A DNA stretch of 59,009 bases from Clostridiales bacterium. Lineage in GTDB: Bacteria; Bacillota; Clostridia; Christensenellales; UBA1242. Below are positions 24,853-44,007 of this stretch, in pieces. The position numbers and the translations under genes are program-made. Below the pieces are notes generated by a model. The model was given only the letters and a program-made list of their open reading frames with translations, was not told the origin of the DNA and ran no database searches. Position 1 is the stretch's first letter. Every line of letters starts with the position of its first letter. The stretch spans positions 1-59,009 of the forward strand of contig SVIA01000007.1 in assembly GCA_015055535.1 (NCBI GenBank). The letters run 5' to 3'.

Positions 24853-25761
24853 ATGAAAAAAAATTTAATTATAGATACTGATCCTGGTGTAGATGATATT
24901 AGTGCAATTACTATAGCTTTATATAGCAATAAATTTGATATTAAATTAATAACAACAACAGCCGGAAATGTTGGCCTTGATAAAACAACACGCAATATTT
25001 TACATTTTTTAGAAAAATTTGGTTTTAATAATATAATTGTTGCAAAAGGTGCCGATAAGCCACTAGTTAGAGAAATTAAAGATGCTTCCATTGTTCATGG
25101 CGAAGAGGGTCTTGGAAAATATATACCATCAATTCCTAACAAGCAAGCTATTAATGAATTTGCAGTTGATAAAATGTACGAAGTTATAAAAAAAAATAAA
25201 CATAACATAACAATATTAGAGCTAGGCCCTCATACAAATTTAGGCTTATTATTTACAAAATATCCTGAATGTGAAGAATGGATTGATGAAATTATTTTTG
25301 AAGGTGGGTCTCCTTACGGAAAACCAGGTTTAAAGCCCCATATATCTTTTAATATAAGTTTCGATCCAGAAGCTGCAGATATTGTTATGAAAACAAAAAT
25401 CAAAAAAACTATAATTCCATCTGAACTTGGAAGATATACTGCATACTTTACTTATGAAGATATTGAAAAAATTAAAAATACAAACTCAGTTGGAGCCTTT
25501 TTAACAAAAATGTATGAAGGCTATGTTAATAGATATAATTTAGATATTGTTCAAACAAATGATCTTTGTACCACAATATATATGTTATATCCAGAAATTT
25601 TTAAAACTTATAAGTGCAATATAGAAGTAGATACAAATTTAATGCCCGGAAAAACAATTATAACAGAAGATGAAAACGGATTAGTTACTTTTGTAGAGGA
25701 TACAAATAGAGAATTGTTTGTAGAAAAATTTATGCACCACTTGAAAAATATTAACCAATAA
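24853..25761 (+). CDS. Inosine-uridine-preferring nucleoside hydrolase family protein
   Basis: This 302-residue protein has the calcium-binding signature DTDPGVDD (residues 8-15) of nucleoside hydrolases. ELGPHTNLG and FNISFDPEAA supply other active-site residues; the family usually reads FN-x-x-x-DPEAA, so the key Asn and Asp are kept. It splits the N-glycosidic bond of ribonucleosides for salvage in the cytosol. Substrate choice cannot be read. The start is supported by AAGGAG eight bases upstream. It follows the walJ-like gene by 63 bases and may be cotranscribed. Confidence 0.93.
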   Translation: MKKNLIIDTDPGVDDISAITIALYSNKFDIKLITTTAGNVGLDKTTRNILHFLEKFGFNNIIVAKGADKPLVREIKDASIVHGEEGLGKYIPSIPNKQAINEFAVDKMYEVIKKNKHNITILELGPHTNLGLLFTKYPECEEWIDEIIFEGGSPYGKPGLKPHISFNISFDPEAADIVMKTKIKKTIIPSELGRYTAYFTYEDIEKIKNTNSVGAFLTKMYEGYVNRYNLDIVQTNDLCTTIYMLYPEIFKTYKCNIEVDTNLMPGKTIITEDENGLVTFVEDTNRELFVEKFMHHLKNINQ

Positions 25762-25795
25762 AAAACCTTTTAAAATTTAAAAGGTTTTTTTATAT
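25762..25795 (+). terminator. Terminator after the nucleoside hydrolase gene
   Basis: AAAAAACCTTTT pairs with AAAAGGTTTTTT around AAAATTT, with flanking A and T runs. Confidence 0.85.
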
Positions 25796-26112
25796 TTTTT
25801 TAAATTTAAACATAAAAATTAGTTAAAAAATTTATAAAAAATGCTTAAAAAACTTGACAAAAAATAAAACACCATTTTTGCAAAAATATGTCATTTTTTA
25901 AAAAATGCATAAATATTTTTTAACTAAAATTTGTATAAAAAATCACACTTCCCAAAAATAAAGGGGTTTTTAATAACCTGGTATAAGTTATCCACATTTA
26001 CACATTAAATATTTATTAATTTTCATGAATATTTATAAAAAATATGAATTTTTATGAAAAATTATGCAATTTTACAAATTTTTATTCAAAAATTATCCAC
26101 TTATCCACATTT
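25796..26112. other. AT-rich intergenic region with DnaA-box cluster
   Basis: About 320 bases without a gene separate two convergent genes. TTATCCACA (perfect DnaA-box consensus) occurs at 25988-25996 and 26101-26109, and a one-mismatch copy TTATCCACT at 26093-26101 abuts the last one head to tail. All point the same way. The rest is extremely A/T-rich, with repeated short ATGAAT/ATGCAT-like words, and has one GC patch (CCCAAAAATAAAGGGG). It may be an origin-like or DnaA-titrating site. The dominance of minus-strand genes on the right does not fit a standard bidirectional origin at this point. Confidence 0.5.
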
Positions 26113-27090
26113 CTACATTATTAAAATGATAATTATACAATAAATTGCATATAAAGATAACAAAGTTATCCCCTGCCATTTATAAGTTCTCTTGTTAATT
26201 AAAATTGGAAAAGCTAAAACAGACAAACTTAAAGCAAGCATTGGCAAAATTAAAATAATTTCTTTAATATTAAACACTAATCCTTTATTAAAATTCAAGC
26301 AGCAGCTTAACCCTAATAATAAAGATAAATTTACAATATTAGCCCCAATTATAGTTCCAATAGCTAAATTCATTCTTTTCTTTTTTAATGAAATTATACT
26401 TGTTATAAGTTCTGGTAAACTAGTTCCAACAGCAACTACAATCAAACCAATTATAGTAGAATTAACATTAAATAGTTTTGAAAGATTTTCAGTTGAATTT
26501 ATTATTAATTGTGCACCTGCAAAAATTAACAAAACACCTATTATAAATTTTAAAAAATCACTTATTTTATCTTTAGTAGTTAAAACGTTTTTATTTAATA
26601 CATTTTTTCTATTCAATTTATTTTTTAAAATTAAGTCTTTTTTTATATCTAAAAATGTTAATGTAAAATAAATTACAAAAATCATAATCAAAATTATTCC
26701 AATTATAAAATTAAAAACATTAAAAACCCAACAAATAGAAACAGTAAGAACCAAAAAAATTAAAATTGAAATTTTATCTATAGTTTTCCTATTTATTCTT
26801 AAAAGTTTTATTATAGACAAGTTAAAACCTAGTATCAAACAAACATTAACAAGTATTGTTCCAAAAATATTTCCAACTACCAATTTATTTGCTTTTTGAA
26901 ACGAACCAAGTATAGTAATAATTAATTCTGGAGTTGTAGCAGCCAAGGCTAAAACGCTTCCTCCAATTAAAGCCTCGTTTATACCAGTCAAATCACTTAA
27001 TTTCGAACAAAAATTAACAACATAACGCCCACCAAAAACTAACAACCCAATTCCTATAAACAAAATTATAATTAACAACAATTCATTCAT
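26113..27090 (-). CDS. Calcium/sodium antiporter family protein
   Basis: This 325-residue membrane protein has two inverted repeats of the cation/Ca2+ exchanger family. Alpha-1 reads GGSVLALAATTPELIITI followed by GNIFGTILVN, and alpha-2 reads GLIVVAVGTSLPELITSI followed by GANIVN. Conserved Glu (PEL) and Asn residues are present in both. It is expected to exchange Na+ or K+ for Ca2+ or another cation across the membrane. Start is ATG at 27090, two bases after the upstream VanW stop (TAATTATG), so translation is coupled. Stop codon is TAG, adjacent to the DnaA-box region. Confidence 0.92.
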   Translation of the reverse strand: MNELLLIIILFIGIGLLVFGGRYVVNFCSKLSDLTGINEALIGGSVLALAATTPELIITILGSFQKANKLVVGNIFGTILVNVCLILGFNLSIIKLLRINRKTIDKISILIFLVLTVSICWVFNVFNFIIGIILIMIFVIYFTLTFLDIKKDLILKNKLNRKNVLNKNVLTTKDKISDFLKFIIGVLLIFAGAQLIINSTENLSKLFNVNSTIIGLIVVAVGTSLPELITSIISLKKKRMNLAIGTIIGANIVNLSLLLGLSCCLNFNKGLVFNIKEIILILPMLALSLSVLAFPILINKRTYKWQGITLLSLYAIYCIIIILIM

Positions 27091-27092
27091 AA

Positions 27093-28589
27093 TTAAGCAC
27101 TTTGCTCCATTGAATGCATCTTATTACTATCTACGCTTGTTTCAACTTCAATTTGAGGTGGAATTATTTTTATATCATTTTCGACTTCTTCAATTGGAGT
27201 TTCATTTCCTTCTATTAATAATCCCATTTTTGGCTCATATATTTCATGTCTTATTAATTCTTTGCTTATAAGCTCATTATTTTTATATTTTTCTAAGTAA
27301 GCTTTAGCTTCATATCCCTCTTTAGGAAACGAAAGTCTAAAATATTCACCTTTATATGTTACCTTGTCTTTATATTTACCACTTTTATCAACAATAATTT
27401 TATCACCATTATGAGGAATAGTTCTAACAAATTCCACACTTCTATTATAAGTAACATTATCTTCTAAAGGCTTACCATAAATTTTAACATAAGCCCTATC
27501 TCCTTTAACATAAGATTGAATATAAATAGGATAATCGCTTATATTTGTAAATCTTAGATCCGCAGTCCCCTCATTAACCATAGCGTCCAAGCTAAGCTCT
27601 ACATACCCAACGGGTAAAGTGTGTTTATGAACTTCGTCTATTTGTGCGCCACTTAAAAGCAAGGCATTATACAATGTAGTTGAAGCTTGACAAATTCCTC
27701 CGCCAACACCTTCTACAAACTCTCCATTAACAATAATTATAGCAGATTTATAACCAGACTCTTCAGTTTGTGGCCCAGTTATATCATTAAAGCTAACACT
27801 TTCATGAGCACTTAAAATTTTACCATTAAATTTTTCCAAAGCTAAACTAACATTATGCTTTCTTCCACCTTTAGAAGTAGATAAATCAGTTGAAAATTCA
27901 CCCAATAAGCTTAATTTATCATTATAATAATCTTCATTTTTTGAAGGCGCAATTAATAGTGTCGGAATTTCAATCTCTATATTATTAGAGTTCTTAAACT
28001 GCCTTTCTATATCTAAATACAATTTATTTTCATCAATTTTTACTCCGTTTTTACTTTTAGTTATTTTAAAAATTTCTTTTGTATTTGGCAAAAACTCAAC
28101 TTCACTATTTATTTCTTCAAATTCTATCTCTTTTTTTATTTCATTAATTTTATCTTTAAAGGTTGGAAAAACATAATTGAATGCTATATCAAAATTAAAA
28201 CCTTGTCTTGTAATATTTTTTATACTTTCACTTTCACTTTCGTTTAGCTTTGAATATTTAAAAGCGTCATCAATTATAGTGTGAATGTTTGAATTTGCTT
28301 CCAAACTCTTTCCATTATAATTCCACATTTTATCTTTATAATACAATTTTATATTCAAATTTTCAATTTTATCTTTTAAAACTCCACCAATTAAATTTTC
28401 AGCTTCTGTTTTATTTAACCCCTTTACATTTATTCCAGAAATAACAACATTTTCAGTAAATTCGTTTTTCAAACTATAATTTTCAGCAAAAAAATTAATA
28501 GCAAGAAAAATTGTTCCAATAATTAAAATAAAAACAATTGTCACAATTAACACACTTAATCTCTTATTATTTTTACTTTTTGTTTTCAT
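27093..28589 (-). CDS. VanW-family cell-surface protein
   Basis: This 498-residue protein is anchored by one N-terminal transmembrane helix (about residues 11-34). The middle resembles a peptidoglycan-binding domain of the PG_binding_4 type. The VanW domain (about residues 225-350) includes FSTDLSTSKGGRKHN, SVSFNDITGP, GVGGGICQASTTLYNALL and HTLPVGYVE. VanW proteins occur in vancomycin-resistance clusters but are widespread in Clostridia as envelope proteins of unclear function, and no van genes are adjacent. A good ribosome binding site (AGGAGAAGG) precedes the ATG. It is coupled to the cation exchanger downstream. Confidence 0.88.
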   Translation of the reverse strand: MKTKSKNNKRLSVLIVTIVFILIIGTIFLAINFFAENYSLKNEFTENVVISGINVKGLNKTEAENLIGGVLKDKIENLNIKLYYKDKMWNYNGKSLEANSNIHTIIDDAFKYSKLNESESESIKNITRQGFNFDIAFNYVFPTFKDKINEIKKEIEFEEINSEVEFLPNTKEIFKITKSKNGVKIDENKLYLDIERQFKNSNNIEIEIPTLLIAPSKNEDYYNDKLSLLGEFSTDLSTSKGGRKHNVSLALEKFNGKILSAHESVSFNDITGPQTEESGYKSAIIIVNGEFVEGVGGGICQASTTLYNALLLSGAQIDEVHKHTLPVGYVELSLDAMVNEGTADLRFTNISDYPIYIQSYVKGDRAYVKIYGKPLEDNVTYNRSVEFVRTIPHNGDKIIVDKSGKYKDKVTYKGEYFRLSFPKEGYEAKAYLEKYKNNELISKELIRHEIYEPKMGLLIEGNETPIEEVENDIKIIPPQIEVETSVDSNKMHSMEQSA

Positions 28590-31763: not shown

Positions 31764-31788
31764 CTTAAAGAGGTTAAACCTCTTTAAG
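31764..31788 (-). other. Strong hairpin overlapping the giant lipoprotein stop codon
   Basis: CTTAAAGAGGTT and AACCTCTTTAAG form a 12-bp stem with almost no loop. The TAA stop lies inside it. The downstream sequence on the minus strand (GTAATAAAACTTTT) is only moderately T-rich, so it may be a weak terminator or an RNA processing or stability element between the lipoprotein and sipW. Confidence 0.6.
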
Positions 31789-34700
31789 CAACAAACATAA
31801 TATTATTATCCGCAATTTTCCAAGTAATATCAACAATATTATTATTTAAATTATTATTGTTTAATGCATTTACTATATCGTCTGAAACAAATGTTTCCAC
31901 TTGAGTATTTGTGTTATCTATAGCCACACTACTTTCAATATTATAAACTAAGTTATTAGCAATACCAAGTAAACTTGTTAAAGTATAGTTATATTGTACA
32001 GTATTATTTTCGTTATAACCAAACAATTTTCCAGCATGAACTAAAATATTATCTAAATTTGTCCATATTTTAATTTTTACTAAGTTATTAAAACATTTAC
32101 CCGCATTAATACCTACTAATCCGCCAATATAAACAATTTGATCTTCACCGCCAATGATAATATTTTCAGTTGACGCACAAATTATTCCTGAATTAACAGC
32201 ATTATCAAAATTTTTATTATTTACATAACAGTTGTTAATTAATCCCGTTACTTGATTTTGTCCAGCTATTCCACCTGCTAAGGCTGTTAATGTAGCTCCA
32301 CCTGCATTATAACTACTACAATAAATATCAGAAGTACAAACGCTTGCAGTTATTTCTCCACTGTTAATACTAACAATACCACCAGAAATTGTACCACTAA
32401 CAGTTCCGTTATTTTCAACGTTTTTAATTACACCCATATTTTTAGCAGCAATACCACCAGAATATAATGAAGTTTTAGCAGTTGGCCATACACTTGCATT
32501 ATTAATTACGTTAAGTATTGTACCTTTATTTTCAGCAACAACCGAACCAGAGTTAATGCTATACATTGAAGCTCCAATATCTACCGCAGCTTCTGTATTA
32601 GAATTAACATTACCAGAAATTTCAATATTTTTAATTAAACCATTACTATATCCGGCAATTGTTCCAACGTTTAACCCTTGACTTATGTTTACGCTAACAA
32701 AATTAATATTATTTAATTCACCAACATAAACAATTTCTTTTTTAGTTCTTACATTTTCTTCAAATCCGTTAACATCTGTAGTAATTACTCTATCATCTAA
32801 AACTGTTTTTGTTTCAATATAACCAAGCAATCCAGTATACTGATAAGAAGTGGTAATTGTTAAATTTGAAATTTTATAATTTGCAGTTTCATCTTTATAA
32901 CCTGATAATGTACCTACAAATGGATTTGTCTCATCAAATAAAGGTTTAAAGTTTCCAGATAATACGATATCCGCTTCTAATTTATAAGAAGCCTTATTAT
33001 TATATTTTATTAATTTTAATTCTTCTTCATTTGTTATAATATAAGGATTATCTAATTCACCACTACCTAATGTAAATGAATTAAATATGTAATTTTCTAT
33101 TATTGTTGGTTCAGATGCCATACTTTGAGTACTATCACTTATAACAGCATATGACCTTACACTAATAGTATATTTGTAATTTACATCTGATAAATTATAA
33201 TAATTATCATTTACATAAATTAGTTTATTATAATTATTATATTCTATATCAGAAGCTCCATTTTTATCAACTCTAGATAAAGATATAATATAACCATTGG
33301 CCGATTCTACTTTATCCCAAGTAACTTTACCATGTTCTACTTTTAAATTTTTAACAGATTCAGGCAATTCAATGCTAATTGTATTACTCTTATTTGAGTT
33401 TAAATATTTATCATCACCAAATGCAACTACATTTAAATCGAAAACTCCATCATAAGTAAAATATTTAACTTCATAGCCATTATAATATTTTTTATCATTT
33501 TCAGTAGTTATATTTATATCTGTTTTTAAAATTAAAACATTTTCATCTTGAGCATTTACATAATAAGCAAGACTTTCAAATGCAAAGCTTGAATTGTTAT
33601 CTGCCACAACTCCGCTGTAATATGTTTTAACATTATTAACAATTTTAACCATGTTTAAAACAACTTTGTTTGTATTGTATAACTTATTATGATTTATCCA
33701 AGAAATATTAATACCATCGTTAATATTTAAATTAGTTAAAGCATCCAATTTTTTAACGGTTTTTCCAAATTCAACAATTTTACTATTAACAAAATAGTAA
33801 TCATCAACTAGCCCGCTTTCATTGCCTAAGTTTTGCACGCTAACAGTATAATCACCAGAAGATTCCTTTTCTGCAATAAATTCGTTTGTTAAATCTTCTA
33901 AATAATATTCTGTATTTACTCCACCCTTAGATACTTTAAGCAATAAAGAGTTTGGACTAGATTTAGTATTATTTTTAGTACCATTAACAACTGAAGGACT
34001 TGTCCATACCAATTTACCATTATAAATTCTGAAATCTTTAATATAGTCTAGTTTTACTACGTTTTCTAAAACTTTTGCATTACTTGTTAAATAATTAAAG
34101 CTATCTCCAATAGTTTTAACTTCTATTGTATATAGACCGCTTTCAACTGAGTCGTCTTCACTCATAATGTAACTAACATTTGTTTGATTTTGTTGTTTAA
34201 CAGAATCTCCCATTTTTACATTTAAATTGTAAACTACATCTTCATTATCACTATTTTTATAATTATCAATAATTACTTCATTCCAATAAATCTCACCAGA
34301 AGCTAAATAAATAGAATCGGTAGCATTTAATTTTTCAGCCGTAATTTTATCTGATATATTACTTGTTAAATAATTGTTTTTACCAATAGCTTGATAATAC
34401 AAACTATAGTTACCAGCCTTATATTTTTCTGGAAGCTCATAATTTAATGTATCCGCATTAAATGTTGCTATATTTTCTTCATCACTATTAACATAAAGAA
34501 TATAATTTTTAACACCAACATTATTATTAACTTTAGTAAACACTAAACTTCCATCGCTTAAATATAAAGGTTCTGGTGTTTGAAGTTTTGTAGCATTTAA
34601 TGTTGTTTCGACACTTGAAATAATTGTACTTTCTTCTTTGCCGCCTAATTCACCTAAAGCTTTAATAACAAAAGTATAATTTCCACTTTCAATAATATTT

Positions 34701-37700
34701 CCATTAGCTTTTTTCATGGCGTCGTAACTTAAAATAGTATTATTAAACTCAAAGTTAGTGATTAATTCGTTATTACTATTATAAATATCTAATTTGTAGC
34801 CATTGCTTTTTGGAATGGGTTCCCATCTTAAAATACCATTTTCAACTACTATAGTTGGAGTATTTAATATTGTGAAATCTATTTTATCAGATATACCACT
34901 AGAAAGTTGATAATCTACAGTAGTTTTTGCTTCTACATAAACTTGATAATCGCCAGCTGATTTAGAAAGTAAATTAAATAAATCTACACTTAAACTTTCA
35001 TTTTTATTTACTGTAACTTTTTGTAAAAGTTCTATACCTTCCCCTACTTTATTAACTGTTACCTCATAACTTTCTGCGTTTTCTACACTTGTCCATTGTA
35101 AAATTCCATCTTTTAAAACAATATTTGGTCTACTTAATCTTGTTACAGTTATGCTTTCTGTTAAATTACTTTTTATTTTTGCTGTTTCTAATAGTAAACC
35201 AAATGTTGTTGTAGGAATACTATATTTTCTTACATTTAAATTAAATGTTTTGTTATATTTGCTAGGTAAAACTCTTGTTTTAGATTTAAATTTTTTTACT
35301 AATTCTAACGCTTGAGATTGATTAGTTCCAGCTAAATTTAAAATATAATTTATATCTTGTCCATCTTCTAAAATATCATCAAAAATTTCTTCGCCGTTTA
35401 TAGTTAAAACATAAAGATAATCAGTATCGCTATCATCAATTACAATTTCACCATTTTCACAAGTTAATTTTGAAACTGCATTAAGTTTTTCTATATTATT
35501 TAAAGTAGCAACATCAAAACTATTTATATTGTAAACAACTTCTAAATTAGGGTTTGTATAAGTTCTAGTATTAGATATTGCTTTAATAGATAAATTGTAA
35601 GCACCACCCTCCATAAATGAAGTGTCTATTAAATAAGTATCTTCATCAATTTTAGTTAAATAATTTACAGTTGAAAGAATTCGAGTTTGTTTTTCATTAT
35701 TTTTTTCATAACTAAATTCAAATAATTCTGCATTACTATTTAAATCAAAATATAAATCGTTTGGACGAAGAGAAGTATCAGAAACAATATTTAAAATTTT
35801 AGGAACTCTTAAATTTGTTGGGCTTGGAAGAATTTGAACATTAATTTTATTTGAAATATTTGTTAAATTTTTTCCATAAGTTTGTCTGTTTAATTTTACT
35901 ACAATATTTTCATTTCCAATCGGTTCATATAAAGAATCCCCAATTGAAGCAATATATATTGTTAAATAATTTTTTAAATTATTGTAATGGATTGGATTAG
36001 ATTCTCCACCAAACATGCTTTCACTAGTAATTAATTCTTTTAAAGATATACTAGTATTTATTCCTAAGCTTTTGCTTTTGGTACCAACTTGGCTTTCTTC
36101 GTTATACATTACATACATTTCGTAACTAGCGCCAATATCTTCAAACGATAATGTGTCATCTACCAATTTAAATGTGTTAATACTATCTGTAAGTTTTACA
36201 GTAATGCTATTACTAAAATCACTATTTAAAAATTCAGAACCACCATCATGACACATTTTTATAGTGTAAATATTGTTTTCTTCTAATTCAATTAAATCTA
36301 AACTACTTGCAATATTTAAAGTAATGCCATTATGTATATAAAATTTTGCCCCATAATCTACAATTGTTTGATATTTAATTTCGCCGTCTTCTACATATAG
36401 TTTTATTGGCGCTGCTAATTTTTTTATATCAAAAGAGTCACTAATGTTACTCATAACAATGTTAGCATTTGCTTTTGGAATATATTGAAGTCTTAAGTCA
36501 TAATTTTGATTATCTATAAAATTGTAGTTTAATGGATCAAAATCTTCAACTAAACTTCCATTTATATACACTAAAACAGTTTCCGCACCTTCTATTTTTG
36601 AATATATTAACTCACCGTCTAAAATTTTAGCAGTATTTAAATTGCTTAATTTTGAAAAATTATAAGTTTCACTAGGTTCACTTTTTAAATAACCTTCTCC
36701 ATATGCAACTGCATATGTTTGATATTCTCCTTCATCAAAATTAGATAAAGACATATCAATAGAAAGTGTTTTTGTTTTATCTGTATCATTATATTTTAAA
36801 TCATTTCTACCTTGTTCATAAACTACGGTTGAAGAATTTAATGTTGTATAAATTTTTAAAGTATCAACAAAACTTGTTGCGCTATATTCTACATTTTTAC
36901 AATCAGTATTTAAATAAGCTTTATTTGGTTTTTCTAATTTTGTAGCTTTAAAAATTTCACTTGCTTCACTAGTAATGCTGTTTTCGCCATTACCTTCAGC
37001 TTTAATTACAAAAGAATATTCTTTAGCATTATATTTTTGTCCTAAAATATAATCATTTGTTTGTGAAGAAAGTTCAATAAAGTTTGCTTCATCGATTTTT
37101 AATAAATACCCACCACTATTTTGAACTGAATTCCAATTCAACTTTCCTTCACTAACATAAAAACTTGGTGCTGCCAATTTTTCAATTAATAAATTTTCAC
37201 TTGTGTTAGAATCTAAATATTCTTTATTATTTCCTAAAATCTTTATTGAATAATTATATTTTCCGGCCTTTAATTTATCATTAGCCGTATCAATTACAAA
37301 ATAATTTTCATTACAATCATTAAATATGTATTGAGCATATTCTGCCTGAGTTTCTCCAGTTCTTGTTAAAACATAACCACTTGCATTTGTATTTGCTTTC
37401 CAAGAAAGAGTGTTTGTTGAATATGTGAAAACAAAATCTAATTCGTTTAAAGTAGGAGTGTCAAATTTATTAATAGTTATGCTATTTCTTGTTAAAGATG
37501 GGTATAACACAACATTTTCTATTCCATGATTATTTTTAGGAATAGCTTGCACTTTTATAATATAAGTTTTGCCTGCATTTTCAAGTTCTTTAACTCTAAA
37601 CCCAAGATCTGGATTATATGTAACATCTAAAACAGAGTAAGTATAGTCTGGATTTTCTTTTTCTACTGTATCATAAACAAATATATTATAACTTTCAGCA

Positions 37701-38392
37701 TTTATAACTTTATCAAATTTTACATAATAATTATCATTTGTTAAATTTTTTACTTCATCTGCTTGAATAAATTTAAAAGTACTTTCTGAATATTCGCTAT
37801 CAGAATATACAATATCATCACCCAAACTTTTAACTTTTACAGAAATTATTTTATTGAAAAAATCATTTATTTTATATTGATTTGTACTACATATAATTTC
37901 TTGTTGTTCTTCACCTTCTATATCAACTAACAAACTATATCCACTACTTGCTTCTATTTTATCCCATTTAATCATTTGATTTAAATAGTCGTATTCTAAA
38001 TTTTGAGGAGTAAATAACTTTGTTCTTTCTGTATAAACTGTAATTTTAATAGATTCGCTATAAACCGAATTATCTTCAGTTACAACTTGAAGGTAAGACG
38101 ATATAGGGCCTAAAACGTCTTTTGCTGTAACAGTTGCTTTGTATGGATCAGTATCGCTAATAGTTAATTCAACAGCATTATCATCACTTAAAATGTAGCG
38201 AATATTTTTATTTACCGCTTTATCTGGTGAAATAGTAACTATAATATCCTTACTTTCAAATGGTCTTAAAATAATATTTTCTTCACTAAGCGTTATTGTT
38301 TCTACTTTTATTGGCTTTTTATTACATGCAAAAAGTATAATACTACTACACATACAAATTATTAATGCAAACAAAGTTTTTAATTTTCTCAT
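31784..38392 (-). CDS. Giant surface lipoprotein with Fn3-like repeats and GLUG-like C-terminus
   Basis: A lipobox LFAC (C23) anchors this 2202-residue protein to the outer membrane face. Residues about 28-125 look like an Ig-like BIG2 domain. Then some 15 or more repeats of about 90-100 residues follow, each with the pattern L-x-W-x-x-V-x-x-A-x-x-Y, a central Y-x-L, then Y-x-x-x-V-x-A-x-G-x-x-Y-L-x-S and a linker KL. This fits fibronectin-III-like modules. From about residue 1770 the protein changes to a GLUG/beta-helix-like region (GELDNPYIITNEEELKLI; GSVVAENKGTI-type turns). It leads the locus B operon, with a ribosome binding site TAGGAG, and would project far from the cell. Confidence 0.8.
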   Translation of the reverse strand: MRKLKTLFALIICMCSSIILFACNKKPIKVETITLSEENIILRPFESKDIIVTISPDKAVNKNIRYILSDDNAVELTISDTDPYKATVTAKDVLGPISSYLQVVTEDNSVYSESIKITVYTERTKLFTPQNLEYDYLNQMIKWDKIEASSGYSLLVDIEGEEQQEIICSTNQYKINDFFNKIISVKVKSLGDDIVYSDSEYSESTFKFIQADEVKNLTNDNYYVKFDKVINAESYNIFVYDTVEKENPDYTYSVLDVTYNPDLGFRVKELENAGKTYIIKVQAIPKNNHGIENVVLYPSLTRNSITINKFDTPTLNELDFVFTYSTNTLSWKANTNASGYVLTRTGETQAEYAQYIFNDCNENYFVIDTANDKLKAGKYNYSIKILGNNKEYLDSNTSENLLIEKLAAPSFYVSEGKLNWNSVQNSGGYLLKIDEANFIELSSQTNDYILGQKYNAKEYSFVIKAEGNGENSITSEASEIFKATKLEKPNKAYLNTDCKNVEYSATSFVDTLKIYTTLNSSTVVYEQGRNDLKYNDTDKTKTLSIDMSLSNFDEGEYQTYAVAYGEGYLKSEPSETYNFSKLSNLNTAKILDGELIYSKIEGAETVLVYINGSLVEDFDPLNYNFIDNQNYDLRLQYIPKANANIVMSNISDSFDIKKLAAPIKLYVEDGEIKYQTIVDYGAKFYIHNGITLNIASSLDLIELEENNIYTIKMCHDGGSEFLNSDFSNSITVKLTDSINTFKLVDDTLSFEDIGASYEMYVMYNEESQVGTKSKSLGINTSISLKELITSESMFGGESNPIHYNNLKNYLTIYIASIGDSLYEPIGNENIVVKLNRQTYGKNLTNISNKINVQILPSPTNLRVPKILNIVSDTSLRPNDLYFDLNSNAELFEFSYEKNNEKQTRILSTVNYLTKIDEDTYLIDTSFMEGGAYNLSIKAISNTRTYTNPNLEVVYNINSFDVATLNNIEKLNAVSKLTCENGEIVIDDSDTDYLYVLTINGEEIFDDILEDGQDINYILNLAGTNQSQALELVKKFKSKTRVLPSKYNKTFNLNVRKYSIPTTTFGLLLETAKIKSNLTESITVTRLSRPNIVLKDGILQWTSVENAESYEVTVNKVGEGIELLQKVTVNKNESLSVDLFNLLSKSAGDYQVYVEAKTTVDYQLSSGISDKIDFTILNTPTIVVENGILRWEPIPKSNGYKLDIYNSNNELITNFEFNNTILSYDAMKKANGNIIESGNYTFVIKALGELGGKEESTIISSVETTLNATKLQTPEPLYLSDGSLVFTKVNNNVGVKNYILYVNSDEENIATFNADTLNYELPEKYKAGNYSLYYQAIGKNNYLTSNISDKITAEKLNATDSIYLASGEIYWNEVIIDNYKNSDNEDVVYNLNVKMGDSVKQQNQTNVSYIMSEDDSVESGLYTIEVKTIGDSFNYLTSNAKVLENVVKLDYIKDFRIYNGKLVWTSPSVVNGTKNNTKSSPNSLLLKVSKGGVNTEYYLEDLTNEFIAEKESSGDYTVSVQNLGNESGLVDDYYFVNSKIVEFGKTVKKLDALTNLNINDGINISWINHNKLYNTNKVVLNMVKIVNNVKTYYSGVVADNNSSFAFESLAYYVNAQDENVLILKTDINITTENDKKYYNGYEVKYFTYDGVFDLNVVAFGDDKYLNSNKSNTISIELPESVKNLKVEHGKVTWDKVESANGYIISLSRVDKNGASDIEYNNYNKLIYVNDNYYNLSDVNYKYTISVRSYAVISDSTQSMASEPTIIENYIFNSFTLGSGELDNPYIITNEEELKLIKYNNKASYKLEADIVLSGNFKPLFDETNPFVGTLSGYKDETANYKISNLTITTSYQYTGLLGYIETKTVLDDRVITTDVNGFEENVRTKKEIVYVGELNNINFVSVNISQGLNVGTIAGYSNGLIKNIEISGNVNSNTEAAVDIGASMYSINSGSVVAENKGTILNVINNASVWPTAKTSLYSGGIAAKNMGVIKNVENNGTVSGTISGGIVSINSGEITASVCTSDIYCSSYNAGGATLTALAGGIAGQNQVTGLINNCYVNNKNFDNAVNSGIICASTENIIIGGEDQIVYIGGLVGINAGKCFNNLVKIKIWTNLDNILVHAGKLFGYNENNTVQYNYTLTSLLGIANNLVYNIESSVAIDNTNTQVETFVSDDIVNALNNNNLNNNIVDITWKIADNNIMFVA

Positions 38393-42475: not shown

Positions 42476-44007
<1,532 letters not shown>

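Follow-up and report, generated by a model that had tools for sequence, protein, structure and literature searches.

A conserved, phase-locked DnaA-box element of small-genome Clostridia as a candidate datA-like control site

A cluster of DnaA boxes in a 59,009-nucleotide stretch of DNA from a Clostridiales bacterium (the window, meaning the whole stretch that was analysed) is one copy of an element of ~126 bp found among its relatives, a family of small-genome Clostridia (~1 Mb), in which two tandem DnaA-box modules face one way around an AT-rich spacer. The reading that we favour, with moderate confidence and on the basis of sequence comparison, is that of a conserved non-origin DnaA-binding control element, datA-like, which would lower the supply of initiation-competent DnaA. 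Among the three possibilities raised in the preliminary description, the datA-like or titration site is the best supported, whereas a displaced origin and a relic are not supported. Copies were compared using R1, a sequence-only model built from an alignment (A1) of 15 elements from 14 genomes, the window copy included. The features of the window site and its surroundings are as follows.

24853-25761, plus strand: left neighbour, inosine-uridine nucleoside hydrolase (PF01156)
25760-25790, plus strand: perfect 15-bp inverted repeat with a T-rich run after it, where the nucleoside hydrolase gene ends
25985-26110, plus strand: whole element, corresponding to R1 positions 1-127 of 128
25988-25996, plus strand: module 1 strong DnaA box, TTATCCACA
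25996-26004, plus strand: module 1 second, weaker tandem box, ATTTACACA
26005-26089, no strand: AT-rich spacer, containing TATTTATTAA (26010-26019) and ATGAATATTTATAAA (26025-26039)
26093-26101, plus strand: module 2 DnaA box, TTATCCACT, 105 bp from box 1
26101-26109, plus strand: module 2 DnaA box, TTATCCACA
26113-27090, minus strand: right neighbour, sodium/calcium exchanger (PF01699), reading towards the element
27093-28589, minus strand: VanW-domain gene (PF04294), a common marker of the element among relatives

The boxes are present as originally reported, two TTATCCACA (25988-25996 and 26101-26109) and one TTATCCACT (26093-26101), all on the plus strand. Two of them had been described as directly abutting; they are indeed adjacent but not exactly abutting, since TTATCCACT and the second TTATCCACA overlap by one base (26101). 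The gap in which they lie (25762-26112, 351 bp) is A/T-rich, with 16% G+C compared to 25.3% for the window, and its flanks converge, the nucleoside hydrolase (+) and the Na/Ca exchanger (-) both facing it. gyrA, gyrB, rplI and 16S were all found in the window, while the gene earlier called walJ encodes a metallo-beta-lactamase-fold protein. Single boxes occur at the chance rate in the window, with 22 matches at up to one mismatch against 19 expected, and the 942-kb, 28-contig assembly contains 10 perfect boxes against 14 for the backwards-read pattern. This site is the only one at which any of the 10 perfect boxes form a close pair. Dinucleotide shuffling, carried out 400 times for the window and 5000 times for the gap, never produced a cluster, taken as two perfect boxes or three TTATCCAC in a span of 122 bp. 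R1 scores the window element, itself one row of the alignment behind the model, at 57.5 bits (E=1.3e-15 for the genome), and this is the only match in the assembly at E<=0.01.

The inverted repeat at 25760-25790 is probably a terminator; a terminator scan requiring three G-C pairs listed none at this position. At Rfam gathering scores, the window yields 16S and two tRNAs only, with no known RNA at the element. The 16S rRNA gene is located at 42476-44007 and no 23S or 5S match reaches the gathering score in the 59-kb window; rRNA genes appear to be unlinked here. The window also contains a 2202-aa open reading frame (31784-38392) with no Pfam match at E<=0.001.

Conservation of the boxes in sister genomes, proposed as a check in the preliminary description, was observed. 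Of 59 family genomes, 34 contain the pattern TTATCCACN{0,25}TTATCCAC and one contains the backwards-read pattern; some of the 30 pattern loci returned adjoin relatives of the VanW-domain or exchanger gene of the window. In constructing A1, six rows of a noisy first alignment (L059, L039, L042, L110, L114 and L121) were omitted and the end of L109 was lengthened by 13 bases before alignment. At E<=0.01, R1 matches 107 of 147 family genomes in 33 of 42 genera, leaving 40 genomes without a match. Many of these matches are partial, and 107 is an upper bound because some weak matches sit at presumed origins: between dnaN and dnaA in three genomes of genus g11 (G138, G107 and G125), after dnaA in three others (G157, G050 and G075), and weakly at several dnaA-dnaN gaps. 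The safe set, restricted to matches at E<=2.3e-11, comprises 43 of the 147 genomes and represents 17 genera; 14 of these genomes supplied rows to R1 and 29 did not, with seven genera represented only among the 29. The strong matches in 17 genera and the retained spacing described below argue against a relic, even though the window copy has lost part of its spacer motifs.

Strong matches usually occur once per genome. Two are found in G048 (L069 and L109), each beside its own VanW-family gene, possibly a duplication of the whole unit. A contig bearing the title 'uncultured Clostridia bacterium' also has the element. Of 200 genomes sampled across the order, 15 match at E<=1e-4, of which 12 belong to the same family; the remaining three are from other families and match weakly (1.5e-5 to 7.9e-5), and a spread of the element across the order is thus not supported. 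Separately, other genera have DnaA-box clusters of a second type, in which boxes are inverted (L040, L041, L052, L053 and L056); a relative of recF is present in L053 and one of parB in L056.

Each end of the element is a tandem pair, consisting of TTATCCACA followed by TTNCACA, or of TTATCCACTTATCCACA. In module 1, the first eight bases of the strong box are invariant in all 15 rows of A1, as is the terminal CACA of the second box. Start-to-start spacing of the modules, measured at 32 of 39 loci, is 95 (13 loci), 96 (5), 105 (2), 106 (10) or 107 bp (2), and a wider set of 29 loci, which includes weak matches and two repeats (L102 and L114, counted once), adds ten values at 93 (2), 95 (1), 96 (2), 104 (2), 105 (2) and 106 bp (1). 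With L168, spaced at 104 bp, all 43 measurable loci fall at 93-96 or 104-107 bp and none at 97-103 bp, 16 loci having no measurable module pair (L042, L110, L117, L120, L121, L123, L128, L182, L186, L204, L205, L206, L230, L231, L232 and L237). The two spacing classes are therefore one helical turn apart. Six genera among the first 32 spacings are at 95-96 bp and eight at 105-107 bp, sister species within these counts not being independent. At L089, a lone box also precedes the first module by 101 bp.

The spacer is 85% A+T, with several invariant columns and one G kept in 14 of 15 rows. The 15 spacers contain 40 TGNATA, where shuffles give 5.2, and most of these motifs are near columns 42, 60 and 80. 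Its reverse complement, TATNCA, is the DnaA-box core, so that TGNATA represents an opposite-facing core, and full TTATACACA boxes are found among the copies in L075 and L085. Same-facing TATNCA cores also exceed chance (13 against 3.8). The window copy retains only the first TGNATA motif.

Spacing in whole helical turns together with a conserved spacer points to a defined DnaA complex, as titration needs boxes but not phase. Plain titration, in which the cluster merely soaks up DnaA without any such complex, is nevertheless the main rival, although we consider it rather unlikely. In its favour, non-oriC clusters are known in Bacillota; such a role has been proposed for the six non-origin clusters of B. 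subtilis, and deletion of all six is described as causing early initiation (PMC5295017; PMC13220808). The element also has strong boxes and, where it shares a contig with dnaA (12 of the 43 strong-match genomes, dnaA having been found in 40 of them), lies 10-171 kb from that gene, any longer distance being hidden by the ends of contigs. Titration alone requires neither helical-turn spacing nor invariant spacer bases, however, and one cluster with few strong boxes would presumably hold few DnaA molecules.

The genes beside the element vary. VanW and exchanger genes are its neighbours in many genera. In g10 and g52, one side is occupied by an RNase III-domain/SpoU gene pair and the other by mnmG-rsmG (g10) or tilS (g52); in g50, the flanking genes are hisS and one for a UvrD-like helicase, and elsewhere one neighbour is a DUF3592 gene. 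The element could instead act in cis on, or at the 3' end of, the VanW/exchanger operon or the left neighbour. At 36 loci, the gene on the module 2 side reads towards the element at 32, away at two and is missing at two, hence towards it at 32 of the 34 loci where this gene is present, and the gene on the other side reads away at 23, towards at 12 and is missing at one. A VanW match is present in 91 of 98 family genomes. Of 60 VanW loci analysed, 22 have two or more TTATCCAC boxes in the 1.5 kb beyond the 3' end of VanW, and at 21 of these 22 most boxes face against VanW. Retention of the sequence beside unrelated genes (rsmG, tilS, helicase, DUF3592) makes such a role highly improbable, and a gene-linked regulatory element was rejected as neighbours change between genera.

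A displaced origin was the other possibility raised earlier. Skew in the window is negative on either side of the element (-0.085 left, -0.188 right) and hence does not switch, and dnaA (PF08299) is located on contig C19, adjoining genes read by eye from their translations as recF, rsmG, parA and parB. Three parS-like sites, called with the parS consensus, are situated at C19:84.0-86.1 kb; none was found in the window at up to two mismatches. Skew on C19 changes from mostly negative (to ~88 kb) to mostly positive (from 96 kb), which indicates, rather than proves, that the origin of this genome is on C19, because the right arm is only ~13-20 kb long. No dnaN match was obtained in the assembly and no strong boxes lie beside its dnaA; a SPFH/zinc-ribbon gene follows dnaA in place of dnaN (C19, L016:8554-11116). 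Neither the search for a dnaN match nor a scan with R2, a model of oriC modules, located the oriC of this genome. Comparison of element and oriC thus rests on relatives, and the position of the element outside oriC on skew and relatives.

In relatives, oriC is usually found just before dnaN, and the element coexists with a separate dnaA-dnaN oriC. The skew minimum lies away from the element in the three relatives considered, and at dnaA in two of them (G023 and G049). The preliminary description had named both a minimum elsewhere and unconserved boxes among its refuting conditions; the first was observed, while the boxes are conserved in sister genomes. In G023, the minimum is at ~265 kb, dnaA at 268.9-270.3 kb and the element at 112 kb, 72 kb of the contig being N; in G049, the minimum at ~250 kb coincides with dnaA and the element is at 193 kb; and in G051, the three are near 84-88 kb (minimum), at 59 kb (dnaA) and at 16 kb (element). 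A -/+ skew switch is absent from 13 of 14 element stretches (up to 20 kb per side), the window included, the exception being G050, in which a weak switch (-0.044/+0.016) is observed and dnaA is ~16 kb away.

Bacillota origins are described as combining tandem boxes with DnaA-trios (PMC8287927; PMC7561715). In this family, oriC before dnaN consists of a tandem box like those of the element modules, followed by TAATAATA-type repeats. Runs of at least three TAN occur in 10 of 12 oriC modules (A2), chosen by eye from 28 dnaA loci, compared to two of 15 elements. The window modules have runs of 2 and 2; among 2000 random AT-rich sequences, 756 have runs at least as long. For the oriC of G049, which was outside the model, the R2 score is 40.3 bits, compared to 17.6 and 18.7 bits for the window modules and up to 26.4 bits for other elements. 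The TAN runs and R2 scores suggest that what the element has in common with oriC is the DnaA-binding part, and that it mostly lacks the unwinding part.

An origin at the window was thus rejected, given its skew, the position of dnaA and the parS-like sites elsewhere and its lack of trio-like runs. The broader proposal, that the site is either the replication origin of this genome or the detached half of an ancestral bipartite origin, is improbable but draws on several observations: dnaN is unmatched in the assembly, dnaA lacks adjoining strong boxes, the window site is the best match of R2 in the whole genome, albeit a weak one (17.6 bits, E=0.003), and R1 weakly matches presumed origins, in the three g11 dnaN-dnaA gaps and several dnaA-dnaN gaps, indicating that element and origin share sequence. 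Against it stand the absence of a -/+ skew switch in the window, the presence of dnaA, recF and three parS-like sites on C19 with skew turning near 88-96 kb, the separate oriC of relatives, and TAN runs common in random AT-rich sequence. The g11 matches were tried as support for a detached upstream origin half and rejected as they lie between divergent dnaN and dnaA; they are probably within the origin and show only that R1 weakly cross-matches origins. At four g11 loci (L165, L227, L228 and L229), a box cluster lies between divergent dnaN and dnaA, with recF downstream and facing dnaA, and this rearranged region is a probable origin.

Returning to the datA-like reading, E. coli datA, a site of DnaA-ATP hydrolysis, is the closest known site in layout, described as a non-coding locus with same-direction strong boxes around a bend at tuned intervals, in an intergenic position downstream of an operon (PMC5742627). 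The element similarly has strong boxes facing one way around a spacer, three of three on the plus strand in the window. It differs from datA in having tandem box pairs at each end and DnaA-like motifs, mostly opposite-facing, between the modules, and in belonging to a Clostridia family. The IHF consensus, as given in PMC4585315, occurs in one of 15 elements; the bending site of datA is thus missing and the element was not filed as a datA member. Within Bacillota, the closest sites are the non-origin clusters of B. subtilis, a species which a review says lacks datA and DARS loci (PMC13220808). Those clusters are likewise DnaA-box clusters outside oriC (PMC5295017; PMC13220808); the element usually has one strong match per genome and a fixed, alignable architecture.

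Two further systems share parts of this layout. E. coli DARS1 and DARS2 are, like the element, short intergenic DnaA-box assemblies with fixed spacing outside oriC (PMC5742627), and opposite-facing weak motifs occur in relatives, both of which are compatible with reactivation of DnaA through promotion of ADP release. In the DARS core, however, box I opposes boxes II and III, as described in the same source, whereas the three strong boxes of the window face one way, and a DARS-type function is accordingly improbable, on a par with the origin proposal. The oriC2 or basal unwinding system of C. difficile and B. subtilis has a tandem TTATCCACA-TTTSCACA much as in the element modules; the element mostly lacks a TAN (DnaA-trio-like) run, is not situated between dnaA and dnaN, and is without a skew switch in 13 of 14 stretches.

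In the proposed mechanism, DnaA would bind both modules on the same helix face, as suggested by the box sequences, and the spacer, bent by HU or by DnaA at the weak sites, would join the modules. As at E. coli datA, the resulting complex would leave less initiation-competent DnaA available, through ATP hydrolysis, sequestration or both, and replication would thereby be kept from starting too early. A further and more tentative possibility is that near-minimal (~1 Mb) Clostridia possess in this element a Bacillota equivalent of datA, which would inactivate DnaA stereospecifically with HU or DnaA taking over from IHF. Such a locus may derive from an origin DnaA-binding module that lost its unwinding repeats.

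Non-origin DnaA-box clusters as such are already known in B. subtilis (PMC5295017; PMC13220808), and we found no report in the open-licence literature of a single, alignable, phase-locked, family-wide element. Origin finders that weigh DnaA boxes could select the element by mistake. According to a 2026 review, it is unknown if B. subtilis has regulators which balance DnaA-ADP and DnaA-ATP (PMC13220808). A conserved, phase-locked element in genomes of ~1 Mb provides a small, directly testable case for DnaA state switching in Bacillota.
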